Part shown: one piece after another, positions 12,106 to 57,585 of the stretch
Numbering within the stretch: position 1 is the stretch's first letter
Layout of the letters: the number at the start of each line of letters is the position of its first letter
NCBI GenBank assembly: GCA_028291615.1
Contig: JAQGHM010000127.1
Span: 1-64,000, forward strand
DNA: 64,000 nucleotides
Reading direction: 5' to 3'
DNA from: Phycisphaerales bacterium
GTDB lineage: Bacteria; Planctomycetota; Phycisphaerae; Tepidisphaerales; Tepidisphaeraceae
Translations under genes and position numbers: made by a program
Notes under the pieces: model-generated
The model's database searches: none
Told to the model about the DNA's origin: nothing
Seen by the model: only the letters and a program-made list of their open reading frames with translations

Positions 12106-12109
12106 GTGA

Positions 12110-12151
12110 AACCAGAAGTCAGAAACCAGAAATCAGAAGTCAGAACTTAGA
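12110..12151 (+). repeat. heptanucleotide tandem repeat, locus A
   Basis: Six 7-base units in exact phase: AACCAGA, AGTCAGA, AACCAGA, AATCAGA, AGTCAGA, ACTTAGA. They begin five bases after the stop of the SPOR-type gene. One of seven such loci in the window. Confidence 0.85.
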
Positions 12152-28016: not shown

Positions 28017-28733
28017 GGGGGTTCCTTTCGATGGAGGGGTATCATGGGGTGGCGGGGTTGCGGCTGCAAGCGGAATTGGGGTGGGGGTGGGGTTAAGATG
28101 GGCGGGTGGAATTTCGCGTTTTGCGTATACGTCGCATTTGGTCGCATTTGGTCGCATCGGGTTTGGGGAAGGCGGCTTGGGTTTGGTTGGGTTTGATTGT
28201 CGAATTGAGCGGGGGTTGGGGGCAGGATCTTGGTTTTTTGAGTGGGAATGGGGTTGGTTGGGTTTGTTTGGTAATGCGCGATGGGGTTGGGGTTGACGTT
28301 CCGATGAGTGCTGCCGCACAACTCAGGCGCGCAAGGCGCAACGTGGGCGCGGGGGGCGGCGTGATCGTGCGGGTTGGAGATGGTCATGACCTAAACCCCC
28401 TTTTGTTGAACCGACGGTATCTTAACAGAGCCCGAACGGAAAGTCCAGACGAAAAATGACACCCAAAATGGCTGGAATTTTGGGAGGGCGTAGCGGGGTT
28501 GGGGCGGGCGCGGGGTTTTGGATAGATTTTATAGGAAGTTCCCTTGTGCAAGGGCGGACCTCGGTGGGCTGCTTTACGTCGGAGTACCGACTACAGCCCA
28601 CTGCGGGAGGGAGAGGCGGGAGGTGGTTAACTCACAGGGAAAATTGACAGCTCCCGTCCCTTTCGATCGCTCCACGTCTGGGCAGTTTTCCGTGAATAAG
28701 CCTAGGCGGCGCTCATGTCGTCGACGCCGTCTT
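28017..28733. other. intergenic region, about 700 bases, with a 10-base triple repeat
   Basis: No convincing gene. The plus strand is G/T-rich. At 28131-28160 there are three tandem 10-base units: GTCGCATTTG twice and GTCGCATCGG. The right third (28560-28733) is less GC-rich and continues into the 3' side of the DUF4365 gene. Confidence 0.5.
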
Positions 28734-33090: not shown

Positions 33091-34614
33091 TTAGCGGCGT
33101 TTGCGGTGGCGGCGGGTTATGGGGATTCTTGCGCCCAGGCTGCGCGGGGGGGCGAGGGGGACTGTGGGGTGGTTGGCGACTTCGGCGGTGGTTTCGCTGG
33201 TGGGTTTTTGGGTGGAGGGGCCTGGGGTGGGGCCGCCGAAGCCTGGCTTGGCGTCGGTCCAGTCCTGGGGCTGGGGGTTGGGTTTGAAGTTTTCGAGGAT
33301 GGCTTGCGGGATCATCATGTTGATGAGGTTTTCGACTTTCGTCAGCAGTTCGCCCTGGTCGCGGCTGACGAAGGTGAAGGCTTTGCCCTCCTTGCCCATA
33401 CGTGCGGTGCGGCCTACGCGGTGGACGTAGGCTTCGGGGTCGTCGGGGATGTCGTAGTTGATGATGTGGGTGATGTCGGCGACGTCGATGCCGCGGGAGG
33501 CGAGGTCGGTGGCGACGAGGACGTCGAACTTGCCGCCGCGGAAGCTCTTCATGACGCGGTCGCGTTTGTTTTGGGCGAGGTTTCCGTGGATCTCGCGGCA
33601 CTCGATGCCGTCCTGGTGGAGCTTGTGTGCGAGCTTTTGCGCGCCGTGCTTGGTGCGGCAGAAGATGATGGCGATCTCGGGGTTTTCCTGTTCGAGGAGG
33701 GCTTTGAGGAGGCGGTATTTGTCCCAGGGGTTGGCGCTTAAAAAATACTGTTCGACACTCTCGACCGTCGGTTTGTCGTCTGCGCCTGGGGCGATTAATT
33801 TCTCGACCGGTTCGCGCATGTACGTGCGGGCCAGGCGTTCGATCTCGTCGCTGATGGTGGCGGAGACGAACATCGTCTGGTGGGAGCGGGAGGAAGAGTC
33901 CTGAGTGCTGAGTCCTGAGTCCTGAGATTCAGAGTCTCCGTCACCTCGGCGCTCGTTGTCGTTGGCGCCGGCGCTTTGGCGCTGTCCTTTTACCTTGGAG
34001 AGGATTCGGCGGATGTCGTCGCGGAAGCCTATGTCTAGCATGCGATCCACTTCATCGAGGACTACGAAGCGGATGTTGTTGAAGTTGATGATGCGGCGTT
34101 CGAGGAGGTCCATGACGCGGCCTGGGGTGCCGACGAGGATCTCGGGGCCGTGTTTTAGGAACTTCATCTGGGCCATGATCTTTTGGCCGCCGTAGACGGG
34201 GACCATGCGGATGGGGGTGTGCTGGCCGAGGCGTTTGAGCTCGGCATCGACCTGCACGCAAAGCTCGCGGGTGGGGACGAGGATGATGGCTTGCGTGGCG
34301 ATGCCCTTGGTGACGCGCTGGAGGATGGGGATGCCGAAGGCGGCGGTTTTGCCGGTGCCGGTGCGGGCTTGGCCGAGGATATCTACGCCTGCGAGGGCGC
34401 GGGGGATGAGGAGCGCCTGGATTTCGGAGGGGGTTACGAATTGCGCGTCGGCGAGTCCGCGGAGGAGCGAGGGGCGCACGCCCAGCGCGGCGAAGGCCTG
34501 GGGCAGTTCGGGGAGCGCGCTTTCGGTGGGCGCGGCGGCGGCGGCGGCGGCGGGTTGCGGGTCTTGAGCGGCGGATTGGTCTGGCGCCGGAGCGTCCTGG
34601 AGTCTGTCGGTCAT
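33091..34614 (-). CDS. DEAD-box ATP-dependent RNA helicase
   Basis: A 507-residue RNA helicase. Motifs in order: Q motif (PSEIQALLIPRAL), I ARTGTGKT, Ia PTREL, Ib TPGR, II DEVD (a Val variant of DEAD), III SAT, IV IIFCRT, V ATDLASRGID, VI HRVGRTARMG. The N-terminus has an Ala/Pro tract and the C-terminus a basic tail. Between motifs II and III, where about 25 residues are usual, there is an extra Gly/Ser/Asp-rich segment of about 35 residues (GQRQSAGANDNERR on) that carries the heptad repeat of locus B in frame. It acts in RNA remodelling. Confidence 0.94.
   Translation of the reverse strand: MTDRLQDAPAPDQSAAQDPQPAAAAAAAPTESALPELPQAFAALGVRPSLLRGLADAQFVTPSEIQALLIPRALAGVDILGQARTGTGKTAAFGIPILQRVTKGIATQAIILVPTRELCVQVDAELKRLGQHTPIRMVPVYGGQKIMAQMKFLKHGPEILVGTPGRVMDLLERRIINFNNIRFVVLDEVDRMLDIGFRDDIRRILSKVKGQRQSAGANDNERRGDGDSESQDSGLSTQDSSSRSHQTMFVSATISDEIERLARTYMREPVEKLIAPGADDKPTVESVEQYFLSANPWDKYRLLKALLEQENPEIAIIFCRTKHGAQKLAHKLHQDGIECREIHGNLAQNKRDRVMKSFRGGKFDVLVATDLASRGIDVADITHIINYDIPDDPEAYVHRVGRTARMGKEGKAFTFVSRDQGELLTKVENLINMMIPQAILENFKPNPQPQDWTDAKPGFGGPTPGPSTQKPTSETTAEVANHPTVPLAPPRSLGARIPITRRHRKRR
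33897..33924. repeat. heptad tandem repeat inside the helicase gene, locus B
   Basis: Four 7-base units: AGTCCTG, AGTGCTG, AGTCCTG, AGTCCTG. On the gene strand they read CAGGACT/CAGCACT. They lie within a coding insertion between helicase motifs II and III; the reading frame is kept. Confidence 0.85.
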
Positions 34615-34799
34615 CGTTTCCTTGGGTGCTGGGGGTGAGCAGTAGCGGGGGATTTTAGCGGGGATCGGGGGAAATGGAAGATTTGGGGATCTGCGGTTTG
34701 AGAAAACGTGGTTGCGTGCGAGGTAACGTGCGAAACCGCGACTCGACTGAGCTCGTCGAAGTCAAGCGACTTTTAGCGGGTTGTGCCAGCGGGGGCGGG
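34615..34799. other. intergenic region between rodA and the helicase gene
   Basis: No gene. It contains CTGAGCTCGTCGAAG (34747-34761), a variant of a sequence seen as a short repeat in many bacterial genomes. Nothing else is evident. Confidence 0.4.
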
Positions 34800-39707: not shown

Positions 39708-39713
39708 GGTTGG

Positions 39714-39748
39714 GGAGTTGGGAGTTGCTAGTTGTTAGTTGCCAGTTT
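39714..39748. repeat. heptad tandem repeat, locus C, overlapping the mreC stop codon
   Basis: Five units of 7: GGAGTTG twice, CTAGTTG, TTAGTTG, CCAGTTT. On the gene strand they read CAACTAA, CAACTAG, CAACTCC, and supply the mreC stop (TAA at 39737-39735) and its last codons (KTGN). Confidence 0.85.
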
Positions 39749-40587: not shown

Positions 40588-40678
40588 CAGTAGGCGGTAG
40601 GCAGAAGGCAGTAGGCAGAAGGCAGTAGGCAGAAAAGAGCGGAGGCGATCGGGCGTTTACTGGCTACTGCCTACTTCT
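40588..40678. repeat. heptad repeat with inverted arms, locus D, between mreB and mreC
   Basis: Left arm: seven units from 40588 to 40636 (CAGTAGG, CGGTAGG, CAGAAGG, CAGTAGG, CAGAAGG, CAGTAGG, CAGAAAA). Right arm, inverted: TACTGGC, TACTGCC, TACTTCT at 40658-40678. Transcribed from mreB toward mreC, the arms can fold on each other, so the element could tune how much mreC and downstream genes are read. Confidence 0.85.
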
Positions 40679-47683: not shown

Positions 47684-48199
47684 TCAACGGCGATGGGTGA
47701 GGGCGGGCATTGCGAGATCAGCGCGGATGCGGTTGGCTGCGACCCAGAAGATGGGTTCTTCTTCGAGCAATTTGACGATGGCGCTGGTGGAGACGCCGAG
47801 GTTTATCGCGACGGCGGCAGGGTTTCCGCGGAGGGCTTGGAGGAGATCGAGGATGAGGCCGAGGGCGGGGGCGAAGAGGGGATGGCGGTAAGAAACCTCG
47901 ACACGCGTCTGGCGGCGGAGGGTGAGGAACCAATCGGGGGGTTCGAAGTGGGCGAGGTCGATGGGCTCGCGCAGGTCGGCGGCGAGTTTGAAACGCAGGC
48001 GGCGGACGGCGCGCTTCTTGTTTTCAGCGAGAGAGCGGGACTCTGTGGCGGTGACGTGGATGGCGGTGGGGAGGTGGGTGAGGCGGACGGCGTTGGAGGT
48101 CTTGTTGCGCTTTTGTCCACCGGGGCCGGAGCCGCGGGAGATGTCGAAGCGGCAATCGGGGAGGAGGGCGTCGTCGGGGAGGAGGCGCACGGAGGTCAC
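47684..48199 (-). CDS. RF-1 domain peptide-chain-release-factor-like protein
   Basis: A 171-residue member of the class-I release-factor-related group that includes ArfB/ICT1 and PrfH. The GGQ motif is in SRGSGPGGQKRNKTSNAVRL (about residues 21-40), the catalytic peptidyl-tRNA hydrolysis loop, followed by a basic region (ENKKRAVRRLRFKL). The stop-codon recognition domain of RF1/RF2 is absent. The C-terminal half is helical and unlike ArfB. It probably rescues stalled ribosomes, which is inference. Its start overlaps the mqnC stop by four bases, so the two are translationally coupled. Confidence 0.8.
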   Translation of the reverse strand: MTSVRLLPDDALLPDCRFDISRGSGPGGQKRNKTSNAVRLTHLPTAIHVTATESRSLAENKKRAVRRLRFKLAADLREPIDLAHFEPPDWFLTLRRQTRVEVSYRHPLFAPALGLILDLLQALRGNPAAVAINLGVSTSAIVKLLEEEPIFWVAANRIRADLAMPALTHRR

Positions 48200-49647
48200 C
48201 GGTCACCGAGCAGGGGCAACTGAACCTTCATGCTGCGGTCTGCGCCGTCGTCCAAGCCCGGCGCTGCGCCGATGAAGGTTTTGTCGATCTTCTTCACGTC
48301 GCGCACCGGAGGGTTGGGGCGCGGGAGGAGGTCGGGGGAATCAGGGCCGTCGTATCTGCGGAGGACGTTGTAGTACTGGTCGCGCTGGGCGGGGGTCCAT
48401 CCGGCATCGCGGATGAGGCGGCAGATCTCGCGTTCTTCTAACTTGTAGGTTGCGCCGGCGGCGCTGACTACGTTTTCTTCCATCATGACGCTGCCCATGT
48501 CGTTGGCGCCGAAGAAGAGGGCTAGTTGGCCGACCTTGGGGCCCATGGTGACCCAGCTTGATTGGAGGGAGGGGATGTTGTCGAGGAAGAGACGGGCGAT
48601 GGCGAGGGTGCGGAGGTATTCGTCGGCGCCGGCCATGCGGACGACTCTTCCTCTCAGGATGTCTTCGTTGGTGCTGTCGTCGTAGGGGCCGTAGATCTCT
48701 GCGTCCCATTCTTTGGCGCGGCCGAGGGGGGTGTTTTCGCGTTGGAAGGGCCAGTGGATGAAGGCGGTATAATTGCCGATTGCGGATTGCGGATTGCGGA
48801 TTGAATTGAGATCCGAAGATGACTTTGCAAAGACGCCGGGTTGACGTTGGCTGACGCGGTTAATCACCTGCTCGCGCGTCTCGCTTGATCCAATCGGCAA
48901 TTCGCAATCGGCAATCGGCAATGCCAGCGCATAGTCCTGCATGTCGCGCAGCGCGGACATGTGCTCGATGCGCTCTCTCACGAACTCGATGTGGCCGATC
49001 AACATCGTGCAGCTTGTGTTCATTCCTTCTTCGTGGGCGACGCGCATGACTCTTAGCCAGTCGTCGCCGGTGCATTTGCCGATGCCGATTCTTCTGCGGA
49101 CTCGGGGGGCGAAGATTTCTCCACCGCCGCCGGGGATGGTGTCTAGGCCGGCGGCTTTGAAGCGGCGGATGACCTGGCGGACGTCCATGTTGAAGAAGCG
49201 TTCGAACTCGATGAACTCGGGCGGGCTGAAGGCGTGGATGTGGACGGTGGGGAAGTTTTGCTTGATGTAGCGGAGGAGGTTTTCGTACCACTCGATGGGG
49301 AGTTGATCGTTCATGCCGCCTTGCATGAGGATCTGGGTGCCGCGGATGGCGACTAGCTCGCGGATCTTCTCGCCGATCTTTTCGTAGGTGAGCGTGTAGG
49401 CGTCGGCGTCCTCGTGGTCGCGGCGGAAGGCGCAGAACGTGCACTTGGCGGTGCAGACGTTGGTGTAGTTGATGTTGCGGTCGATAACGTAAGTGCGGTA
49501 ATCCTCGGGGTGCATGTGCAGGGTTCGAGCGTGGGCCCATGCGCCCAGGTCGTGGAGGGAGGCGGATTGGTAAAGCTCCAGGGCCTGCGCGTCCGTGAGG
49601 CGGGAATTGCCTTCGATGACAGCGTCGATGTTGAAGGTGAGCTTCAT
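48196..49647 (-). CDS. mqnC: cyclic dehypoxanthinyl futalosine synthase, with an in-frame repeat insertion
   Basis: Radical SAM enzyme of the futalosine menaquinone route that closes the spiro ring of DHFL. It has 483 residues, against fewer than 400 for typical members. The radical SAM Cys triad is in VCTAKCTFCAF (CxxxCxxC, near residue 65-72), with GTQILMQGGMNDQLPIEWYE, HAFSPPEFIEFERFF and GLDTIPGGGGEIFAPRVRRR strongly conserved. Between SALRDMQD and YTAFIHWPFQRENTPLGRA an extra 55 or so residues (LPIADCELPIG on, ending NPQSAIGN) are encoded by two inverted heptad arms (locus E) and the spacer. Conserved residues continue on both sides, so the gene may remain functional. Confidence 0.92.
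   Translation of the reverse strand: MKLTFNIDAVIEGNSRLTDAQALELYQSASLHDLGAWAHARTLHMHPEDYRTYVIDRNINYTNVCTAKCTFCAFRRDHEDADAYTLTYEKIGEKIRELVAIRGTQILMQGGMNDQLPIEWYENLLRYIKQNFPTVHIHAFSPPEFIEFERFFNMDVRQVIRRFKAAGLDTIPGGGGEIFAPRVRRRIGIGKCTGDDWLRVMRVAHEEGMNTSCTMLIGHIEFVRERIEHMSALRDMQDYALALPIADCELPIGSSETREQVINRVSQRQPGVFAKSSSDLNSIRNPQSAIGNYTAFIHWPFQRENTPLGRAKEWDAEIYGPYDDSTNEDILRGRVVRMAGADEYLRTLAIARLFLDNIPSLQSSWVTMGPKVGQLALFFGANDMGSVMMEENVVSAAGATYKLEEREICRLIRDAGWTPAQRDQYYNVLRRYDGPDSPDLLPRPNPPVRDVKKIDKTFIGAAPGLDDGADRSMKVQLPLLGDR
48771..48805. repeat. heptad tandem repeat inside mqnC, locus E, arm 1
   Basis: Five units of 7: AATTGCC, GATTGCG three times, GATTGAA. The reverse complement reads CAATCCG/CAATCGG, matching arm 2 at 48891-48925. 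It lies at one end of the mqnC insertion. Confidence 0.88.
48891..48925. repeat. heptad tandem repeat inside mqnC, locus E, arm 2
   Basis: Five units of 7: CAATCGG, CAATTCG, CAATCGG, CAATCGG, CAATGCC. It is inverted relative to the arm at 48771, with an 85-base spacer, so the mqnC message can fold into a long hairpin here. Confidence 0.88.
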
Positions 49648-56658: not shown

Positions 56659-56698
56659 TTAGTTGAGTTTTAGTTGCTGGTTGCTAGTTGTTGGTTGT
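56659..56698. repeat. heptad tandem repeat, locus F, at the end of the epimerase gene
   Basis: Four clear 7-base units (TAGTTGC, TGGTTGC, TAGTTGT, TGGTTGT at 56671-56698) plus a degenerate lead TTAGTTGAGTTT. On the gene strand: CAACTAG, CAACCAG, CAACTAA. They provide the stop codon (56661-56659) and the last residues of the gene. Confidence 0.85.
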
Positions 56699-57585
56699 GG
56701 TTTCAATAGGACTTGCAGCGCGTTCTCAAGCGTTGGGTGATCGAACGTGAAGCCGGTGGCTAGGAGTATTGTGGGGACGACGTTTTGGTTGGCGAGGATG
56801 GTTTCGACGGCCATTTGGCCGAAGGCGGCTTTGACCATGGGGGCGGGGATGCGCAGGAGGGCGGGACGGTGGAGCACTTTGGCGAGCGTCTTTGTGAACT
56901 GGCGATTGGTGACGGGGTGGGGGCTGGCGAGATTGACGGGGCCGGTGAGGGCGGGGGTTTTGAGGATGTGGGTGATGGCGCTGAGCATGTCGGGCAGTGC
57001 GATCCAGCTCATGATCTGTTGGCCAGTGCCCATGACCGCGCCCATGCCGAAGCGGAACGGTGGGAGGAGTTTGGCGAGTGCGCCGCCGTCCATAGCAAGG
57101 ACGGCGGCAATGCGCATGTGGACGACGCGGGTGGTTGGGGGGAGCGCGGCGGATGCCGCTTCCCATTGGCGGCAGACTTCGGCGAGGAAGCCGTCGCCGG
57201 GGGAGGAGTTTTCGGTGAGCGGATCGTCGCGGCGGTATCCGTAGTAGTGGACGCCGGACGCGGAGAGGAAGTGCGCGGGCGGGTTATCGGTGCGCGCCAG
57301 GGCGCGACAGAGGGCGGCGGTGAAGTCGGCTCGGCTGGAGAGGATCGACGCGCGCCGTTTTCGGGTCCAGCGCTGCGCGACATTTTCGCCGGCGAGGTGG
57401 ATGACGGCGTCGAATTGATCGAGGAGCGCGAGGTCGGGCCTGGCGAGATCGGTGTAGAGGGCGTGGGGGTGGAAATCGGTTGGCGGGTGGCGGAGCAATC
57501 CAATCACCTGATGTCCCTGGGCGCGAAGGACCGGCTGGAGGTGGCGGCCGATCAGGCCTGATGATCCGGTGAGCAGGATTCGCAC
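56659..57585 (-). CDS. TIGR01777-family NAD-dependent epimerase
   Basis: A 308-residue SDR protein from GTG 57585 (RILLTGSSGLIGRHLQPVLR, the NAD-binding GxxGxxG). Family markers: DAVIHLAGENVAQRWT, FLSASGVHYYGYR (with catalytic Ser/Tyr) and NLASPHPVTNRQFTKTLAKV. The substrate of these proteins (YfcH/SulA-like) is not known. The last residues (PQPTTSNQQLKLN) are encoded by the locus-F repeat, so the original C-terminus may have been changed. It is followed in five bases by the ldh start. Confidence 0.88.
   Translation of the reverse strand: MRILLTGSSGLIGRHLQPVLRAQGHQVIGLLRHPPTDFHPHALYTDLARPDLALLDQFDAVIHLAGENVAQRWTRKRRASILSSRADFTAALCRALARTDNPPAHFLSASGVHYYGYRRDDPLTENSSPGDGFLAEVCRQWEAASAALPPTTRVVHMRIAAVLAMDGGALAKLLPPFRFGMGAVMGTGQQIMSWIALPDMLSAITHILKTPALTGPVNLASPHPVTNRQFTKTLAKVLHRPALLRIPAPMVKAAFGQMAVETILANQNVVPTILLATGFTFDHPTLENALQVLLKPQPTTSNQQLKLN

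Follow-up and report, generated by a model that had tools for sequence, protein, structure and literature searches.

Inverted heptad arms in mqnC of a Phycisphaerales bacterium as probable copies of a dispersed short repeat module

Repeats of seven nucleotides have been known from bacteria for decades; we know of no explanation of their origin and mode of spread. In the 64,000-nucleotide stretch of Phycisphaerales DNA analysed here (the window), two arrays of such repeats, inverted to each other, lie within mqnC, the gene for cyclic dehypoxanthinyl futalosine synthase. A preliminary description regarded these arms and the 85 bases between them as one in-frame insert of about 55 residues, left by a mobile or expanding repeat unit. 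The question is which part of this locus is foreign to the enzyme, and by what process it came to be there. The reading preferred here, with a probability of roughly 0.7, is that the arms are copies of a short non-autonomous heptad repeat module, the GATTGC family, one of several such families in this taxonomic family of Phycisphaerae.

The enzyme is otherwise intact, as had been claimed: the uninterrupted reading frame encodes 483 residues, the product scores 438.5 bits against TIGR03699 (curated equivalog cut-off, 428.1), and in a structure comparison its fold matches that of MqnE (PDB 6xig/6xi9). An inverted-repeat search delimits the arms as two segments of 35 nt, 89% complementary and 81 nt apart (Table 1); TRF gives each a period of 7 and 4.6 copies. 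Ungapped inverted matching scores at best 23 in this region; 500 dinucleotide-shuffled versions average 7.3 and never exceed 12, so the inverted arms are real and well above chance. Both are stop-free and in frame. Folding of the transcript, proposed earlier as a check, is upheld by prediction; the mRNA-sense strand forms a long stem with a predicted fold of -67 kcal/mol (z = -4.7). Comparison of the hairpin with Rfam gave no family at E <= 0.5.

Table 1. Features of the window by position, followed by the arms of mqnC in relatives (arm heptads in sense orientation; genomes, contigs and loci by number)
Feature	Position	Strand	Sequence or remarks
mqnC	48196..49647	-	arms GATTGCC
mqnC 5' (sense) arm	48888..48922	-	heptads ATTGCCG/ATTGCGA; encodes LPIADCELPIG
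mqnC 3' (sense) arm	48772..48806	-	heptad CAATCCG; encodes IRNPQSAIGN
Spacer between arms	48807..48887	-	ancestral MqnC loop core
Predicted helix in core	~48844-48876	-	TREQVINRVSQ, residues 258-268
Conserved motif in core	48820-48846	-	RxPGVFAKS
Single heptad array	12108..12145		GAAATCA; apparently intergenic
Perfect 10-bp tandem	28131-28157		GTCGCATTTG, 2.7 copies, G/T-rich; apparently intergenic
Single heptad arm	33896..33926	-	GAGTCCT; in frame in DEAD-box helicase (ORF 33094-34761), peptide SQDSGLSTQD
Single degenerate heptad array	39709..39747		AGTTGCT
Paired heptad element	40588..40675	+	GGCRGWA arm 40590-40632, shorter inverted arm 40658-40675
Single heptad array	56671..56702		GTTGCTG; 3' end of an ORF
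C325 mqnC, second in the window's assembly			arms GTCCGTT
G021 mqnC			arms GGACTGA
G012 mqnC			arms CGGGTAT
G003 mqnC			arms GGATGAA
G011 and G025 mqnC			octad arms AGCGACGR
G017 mqnC			left GGGTCAG, right AAAATCA
G016 mqnC			left GGCACGGA, right CAACTGG
G009 mqnC			AAATCCA, right side only
G024 mqnC			AGACGAAG, left side only
G004 mqnC (L111)			non-heptad inverted repeat AGCCGTCGGCTTGCCGGTGGTCTT, wholly left of core

Between MQDYA and YTAFIHW, MqnC of the window has a stretch of 63 residues (QDYA to IHW). Loops of 50-67 residues are found in all family members, and the figure of about 55 inserted residues does not hold. The gene was recovered from the 15 closest relatives in the genome collection and from 21 of 25 other family genomes (in one case in pieces); wherever the loop was readable whole, it was long and contained the RxPGVFAKS core. 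In many outgroup proteins, only 18-22 residues separate QD from the W of FIxW. The supposed spacer encodes this core, which is present in all 22 family sequences, so that arms and spacer do not form a single inserted unit. Since all family members keep the core, whether they have arms or not, it is older than the present arms; ten of the 22 sequences have the core and no arms, as do the basal members of the family tree. This tree was midpoint rooted without outgroup rows, and 11 of its 19 inner branches are under 80%; because it is poorly resolved, the number of independent arm gains rests more on the heptad sequences than on topology. The foreign-looking part of mqnC is the arms alone, about 2 x 33 nt. 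Arm-bearing loops (51-66 residues) are not clearly longer than arm-free ones (50-62 residues), and the arms have therefore replaced sequence, not only added to it.

Codon differences in the core are mostly synonymous (pN/pS 0.31 over the 22 family sequences). Purifying selection thus acts on the core as protein, and neither arm breaks the frame or brings in a stop codon; splicing or translational bypass of the mqnC insert is therefore unlikely. The idea of a tolerated loop is supported. On a structure model with a mean pLDDT of 80.7, for which 25 sequences of the family and of outgroups were used, the arms occupy linkers of low confidence (63-65), but a confidently predicted core helix (pLDDT ~92) stands between them.

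At least nine types of heptad or octad arm occur around the mqnC core within this one family. In seven of nine two-armed sequences, a single repeat family flanks the core, with its arms inverted in every case. Left and right arms of the same gene are complementary with a score of at least 14 in seven mqnC sequences (permutation p about 5e-5; one sequence, L022 and L123, was entered twice, which does not favour the result). Among between-species arm combinations, this score is reached by 2 of 506, both involving the two octad-sharing genomes. Five of the 22 family sequences have arms that do not match, stand on one side only or are placed differently. Octads and other palindromes also occur in the MqnC loop of further Phycisphaerae (L065, L067, L069, L071, L082); L069, from another Phycisphaerales lineage, has the in-frame palindromes CCCTCTCCCCCTGGGAGAGGGTG and GGGTGAGGG.

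The nearest comparison is offered by contig C325 (L203, C325:1-3011) of the window's own assembly, which holds a partial second mqnC. It is syntenic with the window, its mqnC being followed by the same release-factor-like gene, and is 81-82% identical at the nucleotide level; C325 probably derives from a co-binned close relative of the window's species. The flanks of the two mqnC loops are 86-89% identical, the arms 44%. The left arms agree in length and heptad phase, which leaves room for concerted change in situ. A second element on C325, with arms AACCCGA/TCGGGTT, lies 1.3 kb downstream of mqnC.

The arms of the window's mqnC have close copies elsewhere in this assembly (87% complete, 5% contamination), in which copies were counted by pattern searches and in a sample of contigs of about 0.67 Mb. 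Positions 48891-48922 of the window match an arm on contig C59 exactly over 32 nt, and the 3' sense arm differs by one mismatch over about 38 nt from an arm in a peptidase M19 gene on contig C374. A degenerate 21-mer for the GATTGC family finds 48 matches with at most three mismatches, at about 30 loci, and three exact 21-mers; the reversed control finds 0. Typical modules are ~33 nt long (4-5 heptads) and occur singly or in pairs. The seven distinct pairs have the same polarity, with gaps of 1-24 nt, compared with 87 nt in mqnC, where the core lies in between.

The preliminary description was right to see a repeat unit, and one that has entered many genes. The repeat occurs in at least a dozen other protein genes of the assembly, and the Pfam-confirmed hosts, in which a GATTGC arm is in frame, are unrelated: PSD1, PSCyt2, peptidase M19, ABC ATPase, Tex, UbiA and four DUF1501 proteins. 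The arms there encode peptides such as NPQSAIGNP. In single-arm hosts, the C-rich strand is the sense strand and yields a polar peptide, not the cysteine-bearing LPIADC version, a bias that suggests selection. For the M19 arm, the peptide SAIRSPQSAID comes from the strand opposite the ORF that was scanned. In the four DUF1501 paralogues (L242, L266, L271, L273), the arm is at the same place, between an N-terminal signal-like region and the domain, through either recurrent insertion or duplication after insertion. Within Tex, the arm is found in the window's assembly only, and six relatives have the site without it; relative to five of these six, the net gain is 27 nt for an arm of ~33 nt. No target-site duplication is visible at Tex, the one clean empty site and the one site examined closely.

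Other heptad families behave in a similar way. The 21-mer GGATGAAGGCGGAAGGATGAA of the GGATGAA family has 8 copies in the window's assembly, 9 in G003, 5 in G005 and one in each of two more genomes (reversed, 0). It was not found in 391 other genomes drawn from the phylum, which speaks against wide horizontal transfer of this family. A complete element consists of AAGGATGAAGGCGGAAGGATGAAGGATGAATC, a variable loop of 16-36 nt and GATTCATCCTTCATCCTTCATCATTCATCCTT, and the 5' arm of mqnC in G003 is exactly that of this family. One loop of a class I/II aminotransferase repeats the situation in mqnC: it carries GGATGAA in the window's assembly (a full hairpin, in frame, at L104:812-892), GGACTGA in G021, G022 and G015, and a different heptad in G007, and in many other relatives it is short and has no arm. 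The variant heptad GGACTCAG is common to the mqnC and aminotransferase arms of G021.

Arrays of period 7 reach 45 per Mb, with other periods from 4 to 14 at most 24 per Mb (period 14), an enrichment like that of STRRs. In a larger sample, 0.67 Mb of the window's assembly, an inverted partner lies no more than 200 nt away for 19 of 34 heptad arrays (reversed control, 0/34); the corresponding figure for 0.4 Mb of G005 is 9 of 15, where the reversed control is not clean (3/15). Pair polarity is constant (22/22). Like REPINs, the elements are dispersed, many-copy inverted pairs of a fixed arm. At unlinked loci, the variant heptads follow one another in a constant order, and simple microsatellite slippage is rejected for this reason. 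G005 also contains very long paired arrays, AGTAGTC/GACTACT, with arms of 60-70 nt and a gap of 63 nt (L180:15390-15586), and an 80-nt GACAAGT array (L180:1888-1967). For an intergenic element of G005, the congeneric G006 offered no orthologous site, only further dispersed arms.

A search of the window's assembly for a trans-acting enzyme of the heptad modules found none. It has one full, good Y1 transposase gene, which is RAYT-like (contig C209, L202:15500-16900). This gene is flanked by palindromes of GTAGCCCAGG type, that is GTAG type (CCCGAAGGGGCGACA...GTAGCCCAGGTC), not by heptads; they are a separate, REP-type family. Mobilisation of the heptads by a RAYT was rejected, as the only clear Y1 transposase is linked to other palindromes.

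Because the same repeat occurs in many genes, and different repeats occur at the same spot in related species, the overall picture looks like short hairpin DNA repeatedly invading proteins at tolerant sites. The best reading is that these are short palindromic modules with heptad arms, a class particular to this lineage, with dispersal like that of MITEs or REPINs and entry into proteins like that of Rickettsia palindromic elements (RPEs). The modules, single or in inverted pairs of fixed polarity that would form hairpins, would have widespread landing sites; of the copies that land in genes, only those that keep the frame, bring in no stop codon and lie in disordered linkers would survive, their peptides merely tolerated. 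The ancestral inserted loop of MqnC would carry a helix core on two floppy linkers, which here hold the two arms of one element. The same linkers hold other arm families in relatives, and therefore the arms turn over fast while the core is kept. Copying may proceed via a hairpin or single-strand intermediate, either by a trans-acting enzyme, as for REPINs and MITEs, or by template switching at the fork, and the paired arms around the core may stem from one coordinated event. As for the straddled core in seven sequences, a full element could have entered one linker and its partner arm been re-copied across the core by template switching; alternatively, an older element there could have been overwritten arm by arm.

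Several observations count against module copying: no enzyme was found, Tex has no visible duplication, arm-bearing MqnC loops are not clearly longer, the left arms of C325 and the window share length and phase, and the G005 control gave 3/15. Some of these favour a process of concerted evolution in place, whereby an old mqnC heptad hairpin changes by slippage and quasi-palindrome (template-switch) correction, with nothing imported. Left arms alike in length and phase and a loop that does not grow with arms fit this idea; PMC8794818 describes template switching as making and maintaining hairpins, and stems of the Nostoc trnL intron repeatedly change heptad class (PMC4476775). It is unlikely nevertheless, given exact arms with variant heptads in the same order at unrelated loci, basal family members that have the core and no arms, and family-specific mismatches between left and right arms (GGCGGAA vs TGATGAA) that correction would erase. 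Somewhat less probable is a cellular or element-encoded activity that writes matched heptad arms around existing host DNA, the loop being host sequence, with many heptad alphabets per genome; stems whose heptads are specific to the lineage would thus be placed again and again around conserved segments of proteins. If real, this activity would copy DNA in a novel way, distinct from transposition of a complete element.

Chance landing of two same-family single arms in the two linkers is improbable: solo arms are common, and G017 and G016 carry different families left and right, but the same-family inverted arrangement in 7/9 two-armed sequences, with many families among the genera, argues otherwise (p about 5e-5). 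Selection for a hairpin that works as RNA or DNA, in mqnC as in the other genes (e.g. for translation pausing or mRNA stability), could account for the strong predicted fold and for arms that match within the gene. It is very improbable in view of the ten arm-free and five unmatched, single-sided or otherwise placed cases among 22 sequences, the lack of an Rfam match and the same elements in unrelated genes. The preliminary description would have conceded an ordinary protein extension if all relatives shared the insertion and heptad phasing were absent. The loop is indeed common to all relatives; the arms are not, and phasing is found, nearly every lineage having a heptad of its own. A low-complexity extension with no cause at the DNA level is barely credible, because the family-wide loop is its one point in favour, while the repeat length of seven is no multiple of a codon, the match holds on both strands, and the identical DNA is found within other genes and at further sites of the genome. 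Between module copying and in-situ correction, a direct test is afforded by the mqnC arm types, the donor copies, the aminotransferase parallel and the filled and empty sites.

With REP/REPIN sequences and MITEs, the heptad modules share dispersal as short hairpins, single or as inverted pairs with a spacer, and a lack of coding capacity of their own. Terminal inverted arms are present as in MITEs; the modules differ in that neither a GTAG signature nor a linked transposase was found with the heptads and no target duplication was seen, Tex being the one site concerned. Dispersed heptamers, TAACTGA in Beggiatoaceae and GGGNATC in Xanthomonas and Nostoc, form short arrays genome-wide, sometimes inside ORFs (PMC4679880, PMC4692102). 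These have been described as direct repeats with one or two heptad sequences, whereas the present families are many and form inverted pairs of fixed polarity. In the P6b stem of the Nostoc trnL intron, heptads TDNGATT or NNTGAGT stand on both sides and the whole stem repeatedly switches class (PMC4476775). There the stem belongs to a group I intron RNA and falls into two classes, in contrast to the at least nine heptad or octad types in protein genes and intergenic sites found here; by analogy, it may be the same phenomenon in RNA. We know of no cause for the Nostoc switching. Closest in their effect on proteins are the RPEs, short palindromes in frame in unrelated metabolic genes, with several families per genome common to several species, as related in PMC10969869 on Ogata 2000 and 2002. 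The GATTGC arm has likewise entered many unrelated protein genes in frame. The likeness is one of description: RPEs measure about 150 bp, and the unit in this planctomycete lineage is an arm of ~33 nt, alone or in a pair, for which many heptad sequences occur. Outside Rickettsia, it provides a clear example of short palindromes that keep adding peptide to housekeeping enzymes.
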